Shown here piece after piece: positions 7,480-43,141 of a DNA stretch of 43,605 bases. A program made the position numbers and the translations under genes. The notes under the pieces were generated by a model. The model did not search any database and was not told where the DNA came from. It saw nothing but the letters and a program-made list of their open reading frames with translations. The stretch comes from a virus, in the IMG/VR virus record IMGVR_UViG_3300046466_000204, positions 1 through 43,605 of that record; one strand, written 5' to 3'. Position 1 is the stretch's first letter. Every line of letters begins with the position of its first letter.

Positions 7480-8055
7480 ATGAGCATGGTTATACCGCCA
7501 AACCATAGGCAGGGCGAATTAGGCGTTATCAGCCCATTGGAATTAGACAAAGTTCAGTGCAGGGATATTATAGAACTTCACAAAGACCCACAGAATGTTC
7601 ACAAAACAGCTAGGATAAACGCCGAAAATTCAAATGTTGTGGATTTAAAAACAAGAGATACGGATGTTTGGGTTATCCATGAAGATAATGATTGGATTGA
7701 TGCTTTAATCTGCACCGCTGCCTTAACAGCTAATCAAACATTTGAATTGAACATAAGCGGGTTAATGGAACGCCCTCAACTGCTACGATATAAAGCACCA
7801 TCCAACGGATATGATTGGCATATGGATATTGGGAGAGGTGATGCATCAACCAGAAAAATAAGCATATCAATATTGCTAAACGATGATTATGAGGGCGGCG
7901 AACTAGGGTTCTTCATAACAGGTGACCAATCAATTAAGCCTGACACTGGACAAGCCATAGCCTTCCCATCGTTTTTGCCTCATAGGGTTACACCTTTAAC
8001 CAAAGGCATCAGGTGGTCATTGGTCTGCTGGATTACAGGTGAGCCATTTAAATAG
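7480..8055 (+). CDS. 2OG-Fe(II) dioxygenase (prolyl-4-hydroxylase/PKHD type)
   Basis: The 191-residue protein has the double-stranded beta-helix signature of 2-oxoglutarate/Fe(II) oxygenases: HMD (H114, D116) in GYDWHMDIG, distal H168 in SFLPHRV, and R178 in IRWSLVCWITG to bind 2-oxoglutarate. The strand NDDYEGGELGFF is typical of the PKHD/P4H branch. Reaction: O2- and 2OG-dependent hydroxylation of a protein side chain or, less likely, a nucleobase. Such enzymes are frequent in marine phages with unknown substrates. GGAGG precedes the start by 5 nt. The gene ends convergently with the late operon (8-nt overlap), and no separate terminator is seen. Confidence 0.82.
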   Translation: MSMVIPPNHRQGELGVISPLELDKVQCRDIIELHKDPQNVHKTARINAENSNVVDLKTRDTDVWVIHEDNDWIDALICTAALTANQTFELNISGLMERPQLLRYKAPSNGYDWHMDIGRGDASTRKISISILLNDDYEGGELGFFITGDQSIKPDTGQAIAFPSFLPHRVTPLTKGIRWSLVCWITGEPFK

Positions 8056-38417: not shown

Positions 38418-38449
38418 TTGACAGTAGTAAACAGATATGTGATTATAAT
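38418..38449 (+). promoter_or_regulatory. GTAAACA-type promoter, copy 4
   Basis: TTGACA (38418-38423), GTAAACA 3 nt later (38427-38433), GATTAT (38441-38446) at 17 nt or TATAAT at 38444-38449. A long T-rich tract lies upstream. It drives the amidoligase operon. Confidence 0.75.
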
Positions 38450-38493
38450 TGTGTCGAGAGGGCATTGCCCTAGTTTTTACCACGGAGATCAAA

Positions 38494-39357
38494 ATGACCA
38501 TGAATACAAATCGCACTTACGGAGTTGAGTTTGAGGGTTATGGCATTCCTATGGATACCCTTGTTAGCAAGTTACGTCATGCAGGTATCAATGCTAGATT
38601 AGCTTCTTACTCAGGCTCGGACTACAGCGTTTGGCAAGTAAAGCCAGATGGCTCAATTAGTGGGCGTTATGGGTTTGAGGTTGTGTCACCAGTTTTACAA
38701 GGCGCAGATGGATTAGAGCAAGTCAAAAAAGTATTGAGCGTTGTTCGTGATAATGGCGGTGACGCAAATGAGTCATGCGGCTTCCATATCCATTGGGGTG
38801 TTCGTGATTGGCGTATCAAGAATTTCCGCAACTTTTACAAGCGTTGGGCAAAATTTGAGAAAGGCACAGATTTGCTTCAGCCACTTAGCAGACGCGGTGA
38901 TAACGCTTACTATACAAAATCAGTTTACTCAAACGTGGTCATGGGTCATGCCTCTGGCGATATCGCTCGGACTGTGCAAACCATGTTCACCAAGATAGAT
39001 GGGTGTCGTACAGTGACCCAACTTCGCAATCTGATACAAGGCGGTGGTCGCTATAACAAGCTCAACCTTGCCAAGTATCACAGAACAGGAACTGTAGAGA
39101 TACGTCACCATAGCGGTTCATTCAGTGAGCAGAAGGTGATTGCTTGGATAGAGTTGACAGGATCAATGATATCTGATGCCGACAATGGCAAGGCCATCAA
39201 GGGTTGGAACGGTTCCGTGGATGCCAAGAAGGTTCTCGACACCCTTCTTGGTGCGGCAGTGCGAGTTGGTGGAATGTCATCTGCCACTCGCACTTTCTAC
39301 AAAGCTCGCGCTAAAGAATTACAGCGCAAGATAGATGAACGATCACGGAGGGCATAA
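38494..39357 (+). CDS. Amidoligase_2-family (glutamine-synthetase-like) ligase
   Basis: From ATG 38494 (leader ACCACGGAGATCAAA) 287 residues; an upstream frame to 38449 is promoter. The family pattern is clear: RTYGVEFEGYG with E12 and E14, WQVKPDGSI, GFEVVSPVLQG with E62, ESCGFHIHWG with H98 and H100, and YHRTGTVEIRHHSGS with E202 and R204. These are the metal- and ATP-binding residues of the GS/carboxylate-amine ligase fold. Such enzymes are predicted to join amino groups to carboxylates on peptides, metabolites or proteins; no phage substrate is known. The neighbouring GGCT gene two positions downstream strengthens a gamma-glutamyl/amide modification cycle. Confidence 0.85.
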   Translation: MTMNTNRTYGVEFEGYGIPMDTLVSKLRHAGINARLASYSGSDYSVWQVKPDGSISGRYGFEVVSPVLQGADGLEQVKKVLSVVRDNGGDANESCGFHIHWGVRDWRIKNFRNFYKRWAKFEKGTDLLQPLSRRGDNAYYTKSVYSNVVMGHASGDIARTVQTMFTKIDGCRTVTQLRNLIQGGGRYNKLNLAKYHRTGTVEIRHHSGSFSEQKVIAWIELTGSMISDADNGKAIKGWNGSVDAKKVLDTLLGAAVRVGGMSSATRTFYKARAKELQRKIDERSRRA

Positions 39358-39358
39358 G

Positions 39359-39595
39359 ATGTATGTGTTCCAAACATATGATGGGAAATTGTTTAGCGCA
39401 AAGGACGAAAGAAGCCTTGTTGAACAATTACGAAATGACACAATTATTGGCACTAATGATATATACGAATTTATGAATCTCGTTACAAAGTGGACAATGA
39501 TTTACAACGACAGCAAATTAGACCCTGACACACCAGAAACATTTATAGCGTCTATGCTTGATGAAGGTATGTTGACAAAATGGAGTAAGAACTAA
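39359..39595 (+). CDS. Small acidic protein between amidoligase and GGCT
   Basis: The 78-residue protein from ATG 39359 (GGAGG eight bases upstream) reads YVFQTYDGKLFSAKDERSLV then QLRNDTIIGTNDIYEFMNLV and ends TKWSKN. No family recognised. It overlaps the GGCT gene by one base and follows the amidoligase stop by one, so all three are co-translated. As a partner or substrate of the two enzymes it would fit; this is inference from the operon. Confidence 0.62.
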   Translation: MYVFQTYDGKLFSAKDERSLVEQLRNDTIIGTNDIYEFMNLVTKWTMIYNDSKLDPDTPETFIASMLDEGMLTKWSKN

Positions 39596-40056
39596 TGATA
39601 ACCAAACAACCTTTTTATGTGGCCTATGGGAGCAACCTCAATAAAACTCAAATGTCCATGCGTTGCCCTGATGCCAAACCGATAGTGAGTATGTTACTAC
39701 CAGATTACAGACTTGTGTTCCGTGGCGTTGCTGACATCATCCCTGCAAAGGGATGGAAAGTTCCTGTAGTGTTATGGGAAATAACTGAGTCTTGTGAAAA
39801 GGCTTTAGATAGATATGAGGGATTTCCCAATCTCTATCGGAAAGAATATTTTGATAACACAAAGACAGGTGATGTTTACATGGCCTATGTGATGAACGCA
39901 CATGGACTTGCTATGCCGCCAATGGGATACTTAAATGCTATACGCCAAGGGTATGATGATTTTGGGTTAGATGAAACATACATCGATGCAGCTTTAGCCT
40001 TTACAAAAGATTATGATTCAAATGATGGTCACATACCTAAACGCTGGAAAACTTAA
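39595..40056 (+). CDS. Gamma-glutamylcyclotransferase-like protein (GGCT/AIG2)
   Basis: The 153-residue protein carries the GGCT substrate-binding loop YVAYGSNLN (YGSN at 11-14) and the catalytic glutamate E75 in LDRYEGFPNLYRKEYF. The fold releases 5-oxoproline from gamma-glutamyl amines or gamma-glutamyl amino acids. Next to an amidoligase it could reverse, trim or edit isopeptide-like bonds. It starts with ATG overlapping the stop of the small protein (TAATGA) and converges with the ParB-like gene with a four-base overlap. Confidence 0.87.
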   Translation: MITKQPFYVAYGSNLNKTQMSMRCPDAKPIVSMLLPDYRLVFRGVADIIPAKGWKVPVVLWEITESCEKALDRYEGFPNLYRKEYFDNTKTGDVYMAYVMNAHGLAMPPMGYLNAIRQGYDDFGLDETYIDAALAFTKDYDSNDGHIPKRWKT

Positions 40057-40595
40057 CCGCCTTCCATTCTAGTAAAATCTGGAACCCACCCATCTTCAAA
40101 TTCATCATCGGGGTCGCCTTTAGTATCGGGTGATCCCGCATTGTCATAAAGCCTTTCAATCTCGTCCTGTTCCATACCAAGGTGTCTTGCTATCCATTCA
40201 TCATCAACGCCCTGTTCATCTTTAAGGCTTCGAACTATCTCCGCCATTGACATTACAAAGTGATTGCCCCTTGCCCTGTTGTGCGTGATAGTAGCTGACA
40301 CCTGTTCCGCCATTCCCATATCATCAGGCAACATAACGACAGGAACCATACCGCCAGTTCTCTCAGCAATTCTATCATCGCCAGATACCAACCACCTATG
40401 ATAGCCGTCCACAATTTCATTATTTGATCTGACAACAACAGGCTGTGTCCACCCGCAAGTCAAGATAGATTGAACTAAAAGCTCAAGCTCTACTGGTGCG
40501 ACTTTGTTTGGATTGTATGAGTTTGCGTGTAGCGTATCTCTATTGACCCATTGCACACTACTTATGGGTTGCGCTTCTGAACCTTGCTTCATCAT
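40053..40595 (-). CDS. ParB-like (IbrB-type) protein
   Basis: The 180-residue protein has the ParB/Srx core: VQWVNRDTLHANSYNPNKVA, QSILTCGWTQPVVVRSNNEI, VDGYHRWLVS and a conserved THNRARGNH, then an HTH-like DDEWIARHLGMEQDEIERL. The THNRARG signature with a PP-loop partner encoded upstream is the IbrA-IbrB arrangement. The start overlaps the end of the PP-loop gene by 38 nt. ParB-fold proteins bind CTP or act as NTPases or nucleases; the activity here is unknown. The C-terminus is acidic. Confidence 0.83.
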   Translation of the reverse strand: MMKQGSEAQPISSVQWVNRDTLHANSYNPNKVAPVELELLVQSILTCGWTQPVVVRSNNEIVDGYHRWLVSGDDRIAERTGGMVPVVMLPDDMGMAEQVSATITHNRARGNHFVMSMAEIVRSLKDEQGVDDEWIARHLGMEQDEIERLYDNAGSPDTKGDPDDEFEDGWVPDFTRMEGG

Positions 40596-41766
40596 ATTTC
40601 CTTTTTTGTTTTATGGCCTCATCTGTGCCGCCCTGTATTGTAGGCTGTTTTCTTCCCTTGAAGTCTCCTCTTACCGCAATCTTAAGAAGAAAATCCCATG
40701 ACACCCCTGTTCGCGGATGAGCAATTTTATCCAATAATGGTTCTTTTGTTTTTCCATAATGATTTTGAATAAATCCTTTTATGCGTTCAGCGACTTGCGT
40801 TTTATACGGCTCTGGATGTTTATCCACCCAGAACTTTATAAATTCATGCCATGACATATTATCTGGCTTGGCTGGTGTTTTGCCATATGAATATAAAACC
40901 GTGGTTGAATATCTAGCCGCCGTTGCCGCGCCAGCCACCCTTGTTTGCATCCTGTCCCAAATATCAGGCCAAAGCTCTCTAAATTGATGCAGACCTCGCA
41001 TTGGCTCTTCCCCATATGGCGGCGCACACCTTTGAGCATTTGGCTTAATGCCGCCCTTGTCCATGCGATCATAAGCGTGGTTATAATCCCAGCCAAACTT
41101 TCTAGGGGCTGTCCAGATATCCTTTGTGTTCCAATCGTAGACAGGATAAACCTTATAAATGTTTCCCTGTGATGTTCCCTCATCATATTTGATAATGTGC
41201 TTATCTTCTCTTTTGCGGCTATTTAAAATAGCCCTTGTTCGTGTAAGGCTTTCATCTGCCCTAATCCCCATAATGATACCCACGTTTCCATCTTTCTCAG
41301 GTGAAAACAAATATCCGTTTATCTCTGGTATCGTTAGACGTTTTTTTGGGTCTGTTGGATAACCTTCAACATGGGCAATGCCCTCTGGCGGCATGGGGCG
41401 AACCCATTTTTCTTTATCTTCTGGACCCCACGGAAACCACCACGGCTCTTTTACTGAACAAGCATTTCTGTGTCTGACAGGCAAACACCACCAGTGCATA
41501 TCTACTTCTGGGATTTGGGCGACCCTTCGGACATATTCTTCTGTGTCATATGGAATGGCCTCTTCATCAAAATGATGCACTGGCACTTTTTTGATGCCAC
41601 GCTCCTTGGCAACCCCCAATGTAAGCATCAGACAGGCCGTTGAGTCTTTACCGCCACTAAACATAACCGCGACAGTATCAAACCTATCATAAGCCCTGTG
41701 AATACGTTCTATTGCGAGTTCATATACATTTTTATCAATGATTTTCTTTTTACCGAGACGGCTCAT
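40558..41766 (-). CDS. PP-loop ATP pyrophosphatase, IbrA/PAPS-reductase-like (DUF3440)
   Basis: The 402-residue protein has the PP-loop VAVMFSGGKDSTACL with SGGKDS at 37-42, then PVHHFDEEAIPYDTEEYVRR and PVRHRNACS, a middle domain MGIRADESLTRTRAI, VYDWNTKDIWTAPRKFGWDY and the IbrA-type RCAPPYGEEPMRGLHQFREL. PP-loop enzymes activate substrates by adenylation, often before sulfur or amine transfer. IbrA proteins are PAPS-reductase-like but their reaction is unknown. The gene is central in a four-gene minus-strand cassette, with a ParB-like gene on either side and a bicupin. No IscS-like or DndB/D/E partners are visible. Confidence 0.87.
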   Translation of the reverse strand: MSRLGKKKIIDKNVYELAIERIHRAYDRFDTVAVMFSGGKDSTACLMLTLGVAKERGIKKVPVHHFDEEAIPYDTEEYVRRVAQIPEVDMHWWCLPVRHRNACSVKEPWWFPWGPEDKEKWVRPMPPEGIAHVEGYPTDPKKRLTIPEINGYLFSPEKDGNVGIIMGIRADESLTRTRAILNSRKREDKHIIKYDEGTSQGNIYKVYPVYDWNTKDIWTAPRKFGWDYNHAYDRMDKGGIKPNAQRCAPPYGEEPMRGLHQFRELWPDIWDRMQTRVAGAATAARYSTTVLYSYGKTPAKPDNMSWHEFIKFWVDKHPEPYKTQVAERIKGFIQNHYGKTKEPLLDKIAHPRTGVSWDFLLKIAVRGDFKGRKQPTIQGGTDEAIKQKRKYDEARFRSATHK

Positions 41767-41768
41767 TT

Positions 41769-42452
41769 TTACTTTCCATGATCAATGTAAGTTCGGTTTA
41801 TCATTGAATGGTTTTCATCAGTTGGACCTGTATCACTGTCTGGATGGAACGCAACAATATCCATGTGACTATCGCTGGTTCTAAATGAATGAAGCTCCTG
41901 TTCAGTGAGCATAAAAATACACCCTTTTTTCAAAGGCTTGACCCAGCCATCACTGTAATTACTTTTTTCTTGGAAAGCCTCTCCCTCACCGCTAATTACA
42001 ACGCCCATCCTTACTGAAGGGTGAGTGTGTTGAGTTTGATAAATGCCAGTTGGGAAATGCAGATAGTTAAGAACTGGATCACCTTGCCTTGGCATTGAAA
42101 CTAAAACACTATCAGAGCAACCATCAATATATGACAATCGACCATTTGATTCCGTTTGACCCATTACTGGCATACATCGATATCCTAGCTTCGTTACAGT
42201 CCAGAGTTTGAAATCAGATGAATTTGAAATGTCATAGGCTCCGTGAAATGCAAAATAATTTCCTTCTTGAACCCACCAGCCCTGACCATTAGCGGTAACT
42301 TTTGCTGAGCCTGTTAGCACATACCCAAACGTGGTGGCATGAGCTATGCCCTGTTCTTTAGCATCTTTATCAAAATACATCGCGTAAGTTGGATACATGG
42401 TATCAAGTGCGCGAATTCCCTCTGTGTGTTTTGGCTCATAGATTATTTCCAT
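41769..42452 (-). CDS. Bicupin protein of the PP-loop cassette
   Basis: The 227-residue protein has two cupin-like halves. N-terminal: AHATTFGYVLTGSAKVTANG with GWWVQEGNYFAFHGAY. C-terminal: YQTQHTHPSVRMGVVISGEG, then KKGCIFMLTEQELHSFRTSD with HTHP and a distal His as metal ligands. The first half lacks a clear His set and may be structural. Cupins can be dioxygenases, isomerases or sensors. It lies two bases before the PP-loop gene and directly after the larger ParB gene. Confidence 0.75.
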   Translation of the reverse strand: MEIIYEPKHTEGIRALDTMYPTYAMYFDKDAKEQGIAHATTFGYVLTGSAKVTANGQGWWVQEGNYFAFHGAYDISNSSDFKLWTVTKLGYRCMPVMGQTESNGRLSYIDGCSDSVLVSMPRQGDPVLNYLHFPTGIYQTQHTHPSVRMGVVISGEGEAFQEKSNYSDGWVKPLKKGCIFMLTEQELHSFRTSDSHMDIVAFHPDSDTGPTDENHSMINRTYIDHGK

Positions 42453-43060
42453 TATACGAATTCCTTTGTTATTTTAATTAATGCTTGCGTCACGTTATCT
42501 AATTTTTCTTGATTTTGAATATTGCGTAAAGCACTCAAAACCAAATCTCTATCTTGCGGTGACATGACAAAGCTCATAGTTACATAATCACCTACTGAAC
42601 CAATTATATCAGAATCAACTGAATCTGAGCTTTCCTTGTCAATCATATCATTAAGGAACTCAATATCGCCAGCAGATTGAGTGATTTCTGTTGTTTCCCA
42701 TAAATGCTTAAACGCTTCTAAATCGCCGCCATCAATAAGAGCCATTTCAGCCTCTAACAAACCATCATCCCATGTTGTCAATTCATTCAATTTATTATCT
42801 AAAATGCGAAACGCTTTTATTTGATCGGTAGTTAAATTATCTGAAATTTTGATTGGTACGGTTTTCATCCCCAGCTTTTTTGCCGCAAGGAATCTTGTAT
42901 GACCAGCAATTATTACATAATCACCATCAACCACTATGGGCTGTTGCCAGCCGAAACTTTTAATACTGTTTGAAACTGAGTTGACCGCTGACTCAGATAT
43001 CACTCTTGGGTTGCCTGTGTATGGCTTTACATCTGTAACTGGTACTTCTTTGATTTCCAT
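42452..43060 (-). CDS. ParB-like nuclease-domain protein
   Basis: The 202-residue protein opens VPVTDVKPYTGNPRVISESA, IKSFGWQQPIVVDGDYVIIA with GHTRFLAAKKLGMKTVPIKI, then LTTDQIKAFRILDNKLNELT, the signature of ParB/Srx-domain proteins of phages and DNA-modification loci. The C-terminal part (GDYVTMSFVMSPQDRDLVLS) is a small helical domain. There is no fused methyltransferase, though such fusions are common in this family. It is the first gene of the cassette and lies just downstream of an extended -10 promoter and operator site B. Confidence 0.83.
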   Translation of the reverse strand: MEIKEVPVTDVKPYTGNPRVISESAVNSVSNSIKSFGWQQPIVVDGDYVIIAGHTRFLAAKKLGMKTVPIKISDNLTTDQIKAFRILDNKLNELTTWDDGLLEAEMALIDGGDLEAFKHLWETTEITQSAGDIEFLNDMIDKESSDSVDSDIIGSVGDYVTMSFVMSPQDRDLVLSALRNIQNQEKLDNVTQALIKITKEFV

Positions 43061-43066
43061 GAATCA

Positions 43067-43094
43067 CCCCATTTTGGGATAGACTATATCAAAA
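43067..43094 (-). promoter_or_regulatory. 13-bp palindrome (site B) and extended -10 promoter of the ParB/PP-loop cassette
   Basis: CCCCATTTTGGGA (43067-43079) lies a few bases downstream of TGATATAGT (extended -10 on the minus strand, about 43084-43092), so it overlaps the predicted transcription start, a repressing position. The palindrome is the same as sites A and C to within one base per half. Confidence 0.6.
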
Positions 43095-43113
43095 CTTTAT
43101 AAGATGCAAATAC

Positions 43114-43141
43114 GAAAGGGGGGCGACCAAACCCCCCTTTC
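43114..43141. terminator. Ten-base-pair hairpin after the helicase gene
   Basis: GAAAGGGGGG (43114-43123) and CCCCCCTTTC (43132-43141) form a perfect stem around eight bases. No long T-run follows on either strand (GTATTTG on the minus strand), so termination is likely but may be weak. The plus strand continues with AACCACG, a leader remnant. Confidence 0.6.

Follow-up and report, generated by a model that had tools for sequence, protein, structure and literature searches.

IbrA and IbrB, the products of an adjacent gene pair in phages and prophages (YbdN and YbdM in Escherichia coli), are annotated in phages as co-activators of prophage gene expression, and E. coli ybdN and ybdM are listed with cys genes in a table of up-regulated genes (PMC9068703). 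IbrA-type genes match 215 records of the phage collection and are also found in many bacterial genomes. A ParB-like partner for a PP-loop enzyme is also known from Dnd phosphorothioation, where DndC is the PP-loop protein and DndB belongs to the ParB superfamily (PMC10853773). The ParB-CTPase fold was itself surveyed in 2025, with binders of ATP, GTP and CTP and many phage fusions being described; that survey contains no mention of IbrA, PAPS (3'-phosphoadenosine 5'-phosphosulphate) or cupin (PMC12704722). Here we describe a four-gene cassette, ParB1, bicupin, IbrA and IbrB in that order on the minus strand, from the IMG/VR virus record IMGVR_UViG_3300046466_000204. The record, a contig of an uncultivated tailed phage, was analysed over its whole 43,605 bases (the window); it also contains genes for the large terminase, portal, tape measure and tail. 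The cassette is apparently an extended phage form of IbrA-IbrB, for which we infer a chemistry and a target below. The libraries and open-access papers searched held no description of these four genes together, in keeping with the view of the first-pass annotation that the system may be undescribed, and the papers offered no chemistry for IbrA-type genes.

The adjacent minus-strand genes named in that annotation (ParB-like, bicupin, PP-loop DUF3440 and IbrB-type) were all found as open reading frames (ORFs) with domain matches, and the THNRARG motif is present in IbrB. Its further statement that overlaps or gaps do not exceed two bases holds for ParB1/bicupin (1-base overlap) and bicupin/IbrA (2-base gap) but not for IbrA/IbrB, which overlap by 38 bases. 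Both IbrA and IbrB are homologous to the classical adjacent pair over most of their length, and the SGGKDS, DGFHR and HNRARG motifs are common to the two. The differences are that the cassette IbrA falls in a separate clade, marked by C94, C103, HRN and H336, and that the cassette precedes terminase and adds a ParB1 and a bicupin, both of which are missing from classical loci.

To compare loci, 14 IbrA proteins were aligned, one from the window, three from IMG/VR relatives and ten from cultured phages, and a search with this alignment gave 80 viral loci. A search with an IbrB alignment gave 80 bacterial ones, and the genes of both sets were labelled by hidden Markov models (HMMs); the resulting counts are of related loci, the best 80 matches per search, and not of independent events. 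In a tree of 96 IbrA proteins, made by a quick method and with one long branch (L030), the extended and classical classes split at an SH-aLRT of 98. The first-pass annotation had made its four-gene set depend on the cupin and second ParB being conserved in the neighbourhood, and so they are: among the 56 loci of the window's class, 30 have sufficient flank, and these contain ParB1 and IbrB in every case and the bicupin in 22, whereas in the 67 classical loci with sufficient flank IbrB is always present and ParB1 and bicupin never (0/67 each). With its IbrA in a separate clade and both extra genes present, the window locus is not a classical two-gene IbrAB locus. Close relatives keep the order ParB1-bicupin-IbrA-IbrB down to 60% IbrA identity, but there the entire neighbourhood is collinear, and conservation within this lineage therefore proves little alone. 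Dozens of other viral contigs have the cassette as well, some with different flanking genes, and it is found in two bacterial contigs; among bacteria it sits in a probable prophage of Paraburkholderia adhaesiva (contig NZ_JAJEJQ010000002.1). Its order varies, the cupin following IbrB in L062, L066, L071, L075 and L077 and coming first in L111. A search centred on the bicupin gave 42 complete loci, with IbrA in 31 and ParB1 and IbrB in 30 each. By this comparison ParB1, IbrA and IbrB are a fixed core with the cupin as the usual fourth gene, and the existence of a real, widely conserved cassette is well supported. The Arthrobacter phage Salgado has the same three-gene order, ParB-IbrA-ParB, next to terminase, but it lacks a cupin, its IbrA is very divergent (a long branch) and its upstream ParB aligns at 19% identity only.

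The cassette also usually lies directly upstream of the DNA-packaging genes. A large terminase gene was found within 4 kb downstream in 32 of the 41 extended loci with 3 kb of downstream sequence (median distance 1.0 kb) and in 0 of 16 classical viral IbrAB loci, the contrast being one between these two sets of loci. The terminases concerned fall into five HMM groups, with cross-detection between 4 and 11 and between 4 and 26. Since the terminase HMMs were derived from the extended loci, the contrast was checked independently with Pfam: 63 ORFs downstream of extended loci included 15 Terminase_6N, 14 GpA_ATPase, 8 Terminase_3 and 3 TerL_ATPase members, and 27 ORFs of classical loci included no terminase, helicases predominating.

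IbrA matched DUF3440 (3e-12, 47.2 bits against a cut-off of 25), PAPS_reduct (1.5e-9, 38.6 bits against 22.5) and the PAPS-reductase PHROG (3e-88), and by sequence it can be placed in the IbrA/DUF3440 family. Its motifs are the SGGKDS loop, DEEA, GIRADES..R and YP(I/V)YDW..DIW. SGGKDS is invariant across 57 IbrA sequences, and D67-E68-E69, R169, E172, R176, D211, D216 and R246 are likewise invariant in the clade; such invariant catalytic loops argue for chemistry. H336 (57/57) and the segment C94-x4-HRN-x-C103-S, including H99-R100-N101, are features of the clade, with C94 in 54/57 and C103 in 53/57; no Cys is invariant across the 14-sequence set that takes in classical IbrA. The nearest solved fold to the IbrA model (predicted local distance difference test, pLDDT, 88) is FAD synthase (VIA Z 17.2, root-mean-square deviation (rmsd) 3.3-3.9 over 172-184 residues), followed by CysD (Z 15.4) and then the reductases of PAPS and adenosine 5'-phosphosulphate (APS), at Z 13-15. 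As modelled, IbrA is closest to the PAPS domain of FAD synthase and to the CysD ATP sulfurylase, both of which transfer adenosine monophosphate (AMP), but it differs from them in its extra DUF3440 C-terminal part and in having no flavin mononucleotide or sulphate context.

PAPS/APS reductases (CysH) carry a C-terminal ECGxH catalytic motif. The window IbrA is without ECG and reached only 20 bits with TIGR00434 (cut-off 165), and identity with CysH was rejected. DndC was rejected also, the TIGR03183 score being 24.5 bits against a cut-off of 290 and the PADLOC DndC match being confined to residues 158-223. The cassette resembles Dnd in pairing a PP-loop enzyme with ParB-superfamily partners, but the DndC match itself is weak and partial. 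No DndA, DndD or DndE-like gene was found in the cassette, just past which the window ends, and PADLOC gave no convincing defence family for the cassette.

The two ParB-like proteins have a ParB/Srx domain in common (hhalign probability 98), with the two boxes GxxR and xxN(R/K) in alignment. ParB1 matched Pfam ParB_N (1.1e-11) and phrog_620 (2.3e-43) and carries the motifs NPR, GHTR and LDNK as well as a C-terminal segment that is conserved. IbrB matched ParB_N at 2e-5 (25.2 bits, slightly below the 26.3 cut-off) and a PHROG ParB family at 2e-60, is 35-41% identical to IbrB of cultured phages, and has the motifs YNPN, DG(F/Y)HR and (T/R)HNRARGxH. As it adjoins IbrA and HNRARG is kept in 55/55 sequences, it can be placed, by sequence, in the IbrB family. 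Neither protein looks like a partition ParB, the TIGR00180 scores being 45.0 and 25.8 bits against a cut-off of 58.45 with no helix-turn-helix in Pfam; scans of Pfam, PHROG and TIGRFAM-type models found no helix-turn-helix or other DNA-binding domain in any of the four cassette proteins at the thresholds used. In sulfiredoxin the catalytic Cys sits in a GCHR loop; IbrB has DG(F/Y)HR, with no Cys, and this identity was rejected as well.

The bicupin reached 25.5 bits with Pfam Cupin_2 (1e-5; cut-off 27.2), and its model consists of two barrels (mean pLDDT 92.9). In the C-terminal barrel H142, H144 and H188 are invariant (38/38), and C112, R148, H203 and H215 are also kept; since the three histidines follow the pattern of metal-binding barrels, they probably form a metal site. 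Over the whole two-barrel fold the model resembles the ureidoglycine aminohydrolase-type bicupins YlbA, EF2996 and DR1152 (VIA Z 18-20, rmsd 3.0-3.5) and BacB (Z 18.8); in the fold test for the ureidoglycine aminohydrolase type it scored Z 18.6-20, a likeness of modelled fold. Identity to these proteins is 10-16%, however, and the core of the cassette bicupin is its own: YIDGC, QTxHTHPSxR and HPDSDxG. Cupins also resemble AraC ligand-binding domains. Ectoine synthase was rejected for the window cupin (PF06339, 14.6 bits against a cut-off of 27). PHROGs gave no bicupin match except one weak partial one (phrog_2260, E 0.005). A single cellular homologue was found, in Paraburkholderia caribensis, with no IbrA within 15 kb; searches of 298 further genomes from the Paraburkholderia family and of 397 more from its phylum gave none. 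In P. caribensis (L191, 14860-18813) the bicupin homologue is followed by what look by eye like methyltransferase, desaturase and AzlC ORFs, resembling a small-molecule operon.

Other cupins have been joined to IbrAB. An ectoine-synthase-like cupin is fused with IbrB in Mycobacterium phage Gaia, and in Pseudoalteromonas phage XCL1123 this cupin has its own gene, placed between those for IbrA and IbrB. These loci, like the window, tie a cupin to IbrAB, but with a single EctC-like cupin and no ParB1 match, and they form one group within the classical class of the IbrA tree (support 100), indicating a separate recruitment. A third, single-domain type of cupin is present in extended loci without the bicupin (L038, L040, L041, L043, L044 and L048). 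Cupins have joined IbrAB more than once, and three kinds of them are seen; the occurrence of at least the bicupin and the EctC-like cupin in separate IbrA clades is good evidence that a cupin is part of the pathway.

Where the bicupin is missing, its slot between ParB1 and IbrA may hold a sodium:solute symporter (L037 and L039; SSF 4e-19) or a TctC binding protein (L051-L053; 2e-38), and in L043 an aldehyde dehydrogenase (Aldedh 5e-104) occupies the slot beside a single cupin. In one INPHARED contig, from a human-gut phage, the genes for a symporter, a small PP-loop enzyme, ParB1, IbrA and IbrB stand consecutively, and a small PAPS_reduct-type PP-loop gene is near the cassette in nine loci. 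Taken together, these slot genes suggest a small-molecule substrate. Furthermore, in 17 of the 22 bicupin loci without IbrA and ParB1, many of them in larger contigs, a different PP-loop-like gene is present, usually within two genes of the bicupin. Its product, of about 360 amino acids with an SGGIDS or GGGIDS loop, has no match in Pfam or PHROG, and INPHARED held no match to it or to four bicupin proteins; its profile aligns with IbrA across the PP-loop (probability 90). There are therefore two unrelated settings in which the bicupin occurs with a PP-loop-type enzyme. Some of the IbrA-free loci also have a QueE-like radical-SAM gene (L246, 2450-3340), a PTPS (QueD-type) gene (L243, 6990-7511) or a dCMP-deaminase gene, the first two being a hint of deazaguanine chemistry nearby.

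The positions of these features are given in Table 1. The hairpin between the upstream helicase gene and the cassette is a candidate terminator, in whose stem an A/T compensatory change in the relative L007 preserves pairing; because it parts the two, the cassette would probably have its own transcript. The promoter-like site is weak, promoter and terminator scans gave matches no better than chance level, and Rfam and tRNA scans were empty. Converging on the cassette are an Amidoligase_2 gene (38449-39357, +) and a gamma-glutamyl cyclotransferase-like gene (39595-40056, +); genes from the same clusters adjoin the TctC-containing cassette of L053, which has a different terminase group. The window also has a 2-oxoglutarate (2OG)-Fe(II) oxygenase-like gene (7480-8055, +; phrog_61, 4.5e-31), and a 2OG-FeII_Oxy_5 protein, whose cluster is found also in L037 and L039, is encoded directly upstream of ParB1 in L035.

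Table 1. Coordinates of the cassette genes, of nearby candidate signals and of related genes in other loci
Feature	Coordinates	Strand	Remarks
ParB1	42452..43060	-	202 aa; ParB/Srx fold; first cassette gene
Bicupin	41769..42452	-	227 aa; two cupin barrels
IbrA-like PP-loop ATPase (DUF3440/PAPS_reduct)	40558..41766	-	402 aa
IbrB-like ParB/Srx-fold protein	40053..40595	-	180 aa
Hairpin (candidate terminator)	43115..43140	-	AAAGGGGGG-N8-CCCCCCTTT; between upstream helicase gene and cassette
Promoter-like site	43083..43110	-	TTTGCA-16-TATAGT, TG ahead; 23 bases before ParB1 start; weak
EctC-like cupin, classical IbrAB phages	L028 6308-7207; L027 6332-6724		fused to or beside IbrB
Symporter, TctC periplasmic binding protein or aldehyde dehydrogenase genes	L037 3099-4535; L039 3090-4535; L195 6040-7422; L051 2756-3598; L043 3102-4508		inside or beside cassette
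SGGIDS PP-loop-like genes	L243 3422-4501; L257 5119-6207 (-); L264 2357-3580; others		beside bicupin

The best overall explanation, which we hold tentatively and at rather less than an even chance, is that the PP-loop enzyme acts on a cupin-dependent small molecule with formation of AMP and that ParB-fold NTPases couple this reaction to nucleic acid, the likeliest target being phage DNA prior to packaging. The bicupin, as a probable metal enzyme, would make or trim a small carboxylate- or phosphate-type metabolite, a similar substrate perhaps being supplied in loci without it by an uptake protein (SSF, TctC) or aldehyde dehydrogenase. IbrA would then adenylylate this substrate using ATP, like the FAD synthase/CysD branch of the PP-loop superfamily, and hand the activated group on, possibly via the clade-specific Cys94/Cys103 pair. 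The two ParB/Srx-fold proteins may bind nucleoside triphosphates and, working as switches or as handlers of phosphate, recruit the enzyme to nucleic acid. These three steps are moderately supported. The outcome would be late modification of phage DNA before packaging, probably against host nucleases, as suggested by the ParB folds and the gene position only. Support is greatest for a PP-loop enzyme acting on a cupin-handled metabolite, less for the ParB link to nucleic acid and least for modified phage DNA as the product. Small-molecule-dependent chemistry is favoured over simple DNA sulphuration because transporters and aldehyde dehydrogenase replace the cupin and the nearest folds to IbrA transfer AMP; sulphuration is further lowered by the lack of any DndC-level score. 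Several points weigh against the proposed scheme. Adenylyl transfer is suggested only by the likeness of the modelled fold, and the reductases score little lower in Z. ParB-fold proteins that play no part in modification are common in phages, and ParB1 is similar to phage ParB proteins of the generic type; the adjacency to terminase could stem from the place of the cassette in an operon and not from what it does. The cupin fold is a versatile one, and the bicupins nearest in fold fix no reaction. Finally, classical IbrAB is maintained with neither a cupin nor ParB1, so the core may do something else.

The slot genes could instead mean that the cassette is an auxiliary metabolic module, possibly for sulphur or organic acids, which scavenges and activates a metabolite for phage growth with nucleic acid not being the target. 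The up-regulation of E. coli ybdN/ybdM alongside cys genes would fit such a role (PMC9068703). So would the metabolic nature of the symporter, TctC, aldehyde dehydrogenase and extra PAPS_reduct enzyme and the neighbours of the P. caribensis homologue. This is a possible though doubtful reading, as no metabolic role is obvious for the two invariant core ParB/Srx-fold proteins, the cassette stays beside terminase and IbrA is without the reductase motif. The location just ahead of terminase, together with the co-activator annotation and the likeness of cupins to AraC ligand-binding domains, might alternatively point to a transcription regulator that turns on late genes, the PP-loop protein and cupin sensing ATP and a ligand; we consider this unlikely, since no DNA-binding domain was detected at the thresholds used, the full conservation of catalytic loops speaks for chemistry and the classical IbrAB pair of phages lies away from terminase. 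The first-pass annotation proposed modification or counter-defence. The latter, in which a host defence signal or substrate (a nucleotide or phosphorothioate mark) would be altered or removed and phage DNA left unmarked, is improbable: there is no match to a known anti-defence family and the DndC similarity spans about 60 residues only, even though the cassette is located in a phage, PP-loop plus ParB recalls DndC/DndB, and ParB-fold fusions are enriched in prophages, with an anti-defence role suggested (PMC12704722). That the four genes travel together merely through a gene order common to related viruses, as the collinearity within the window's lineage might imply, is scarcely credible when the set holds together among other flanking genes, beside five terminase groups, with its order rearranged and in two contigs from bacteria.

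With PP-loop chemistry on a cupin-handled molecule as the preferred explanation, the cassette may represent an undescribed phage nucleic-acid hypermodification, in which a cupin-processed metabolite, adenylylated by the PP-loop enzyme, is put on DNA under two ParB-fold NTPases before packaging, with a parallel bicupin and SGGIDS version in larger phages; in this full form the proposal is conceivable but rather unlikely. Two families also come to light, one of bicupins and one of SGGIDS PP-loop proteins, for which the cultured-phage and phage-family libraries searched gave either no match or a single weak one. The extended cassette adds assayable partners to IbrA-type genes, namely a metal cupin, a second ParB and the transporter or dehydrogenase substitutes, and what had been a regulator of unknown function thereby becomes a testable enzyme pathway.

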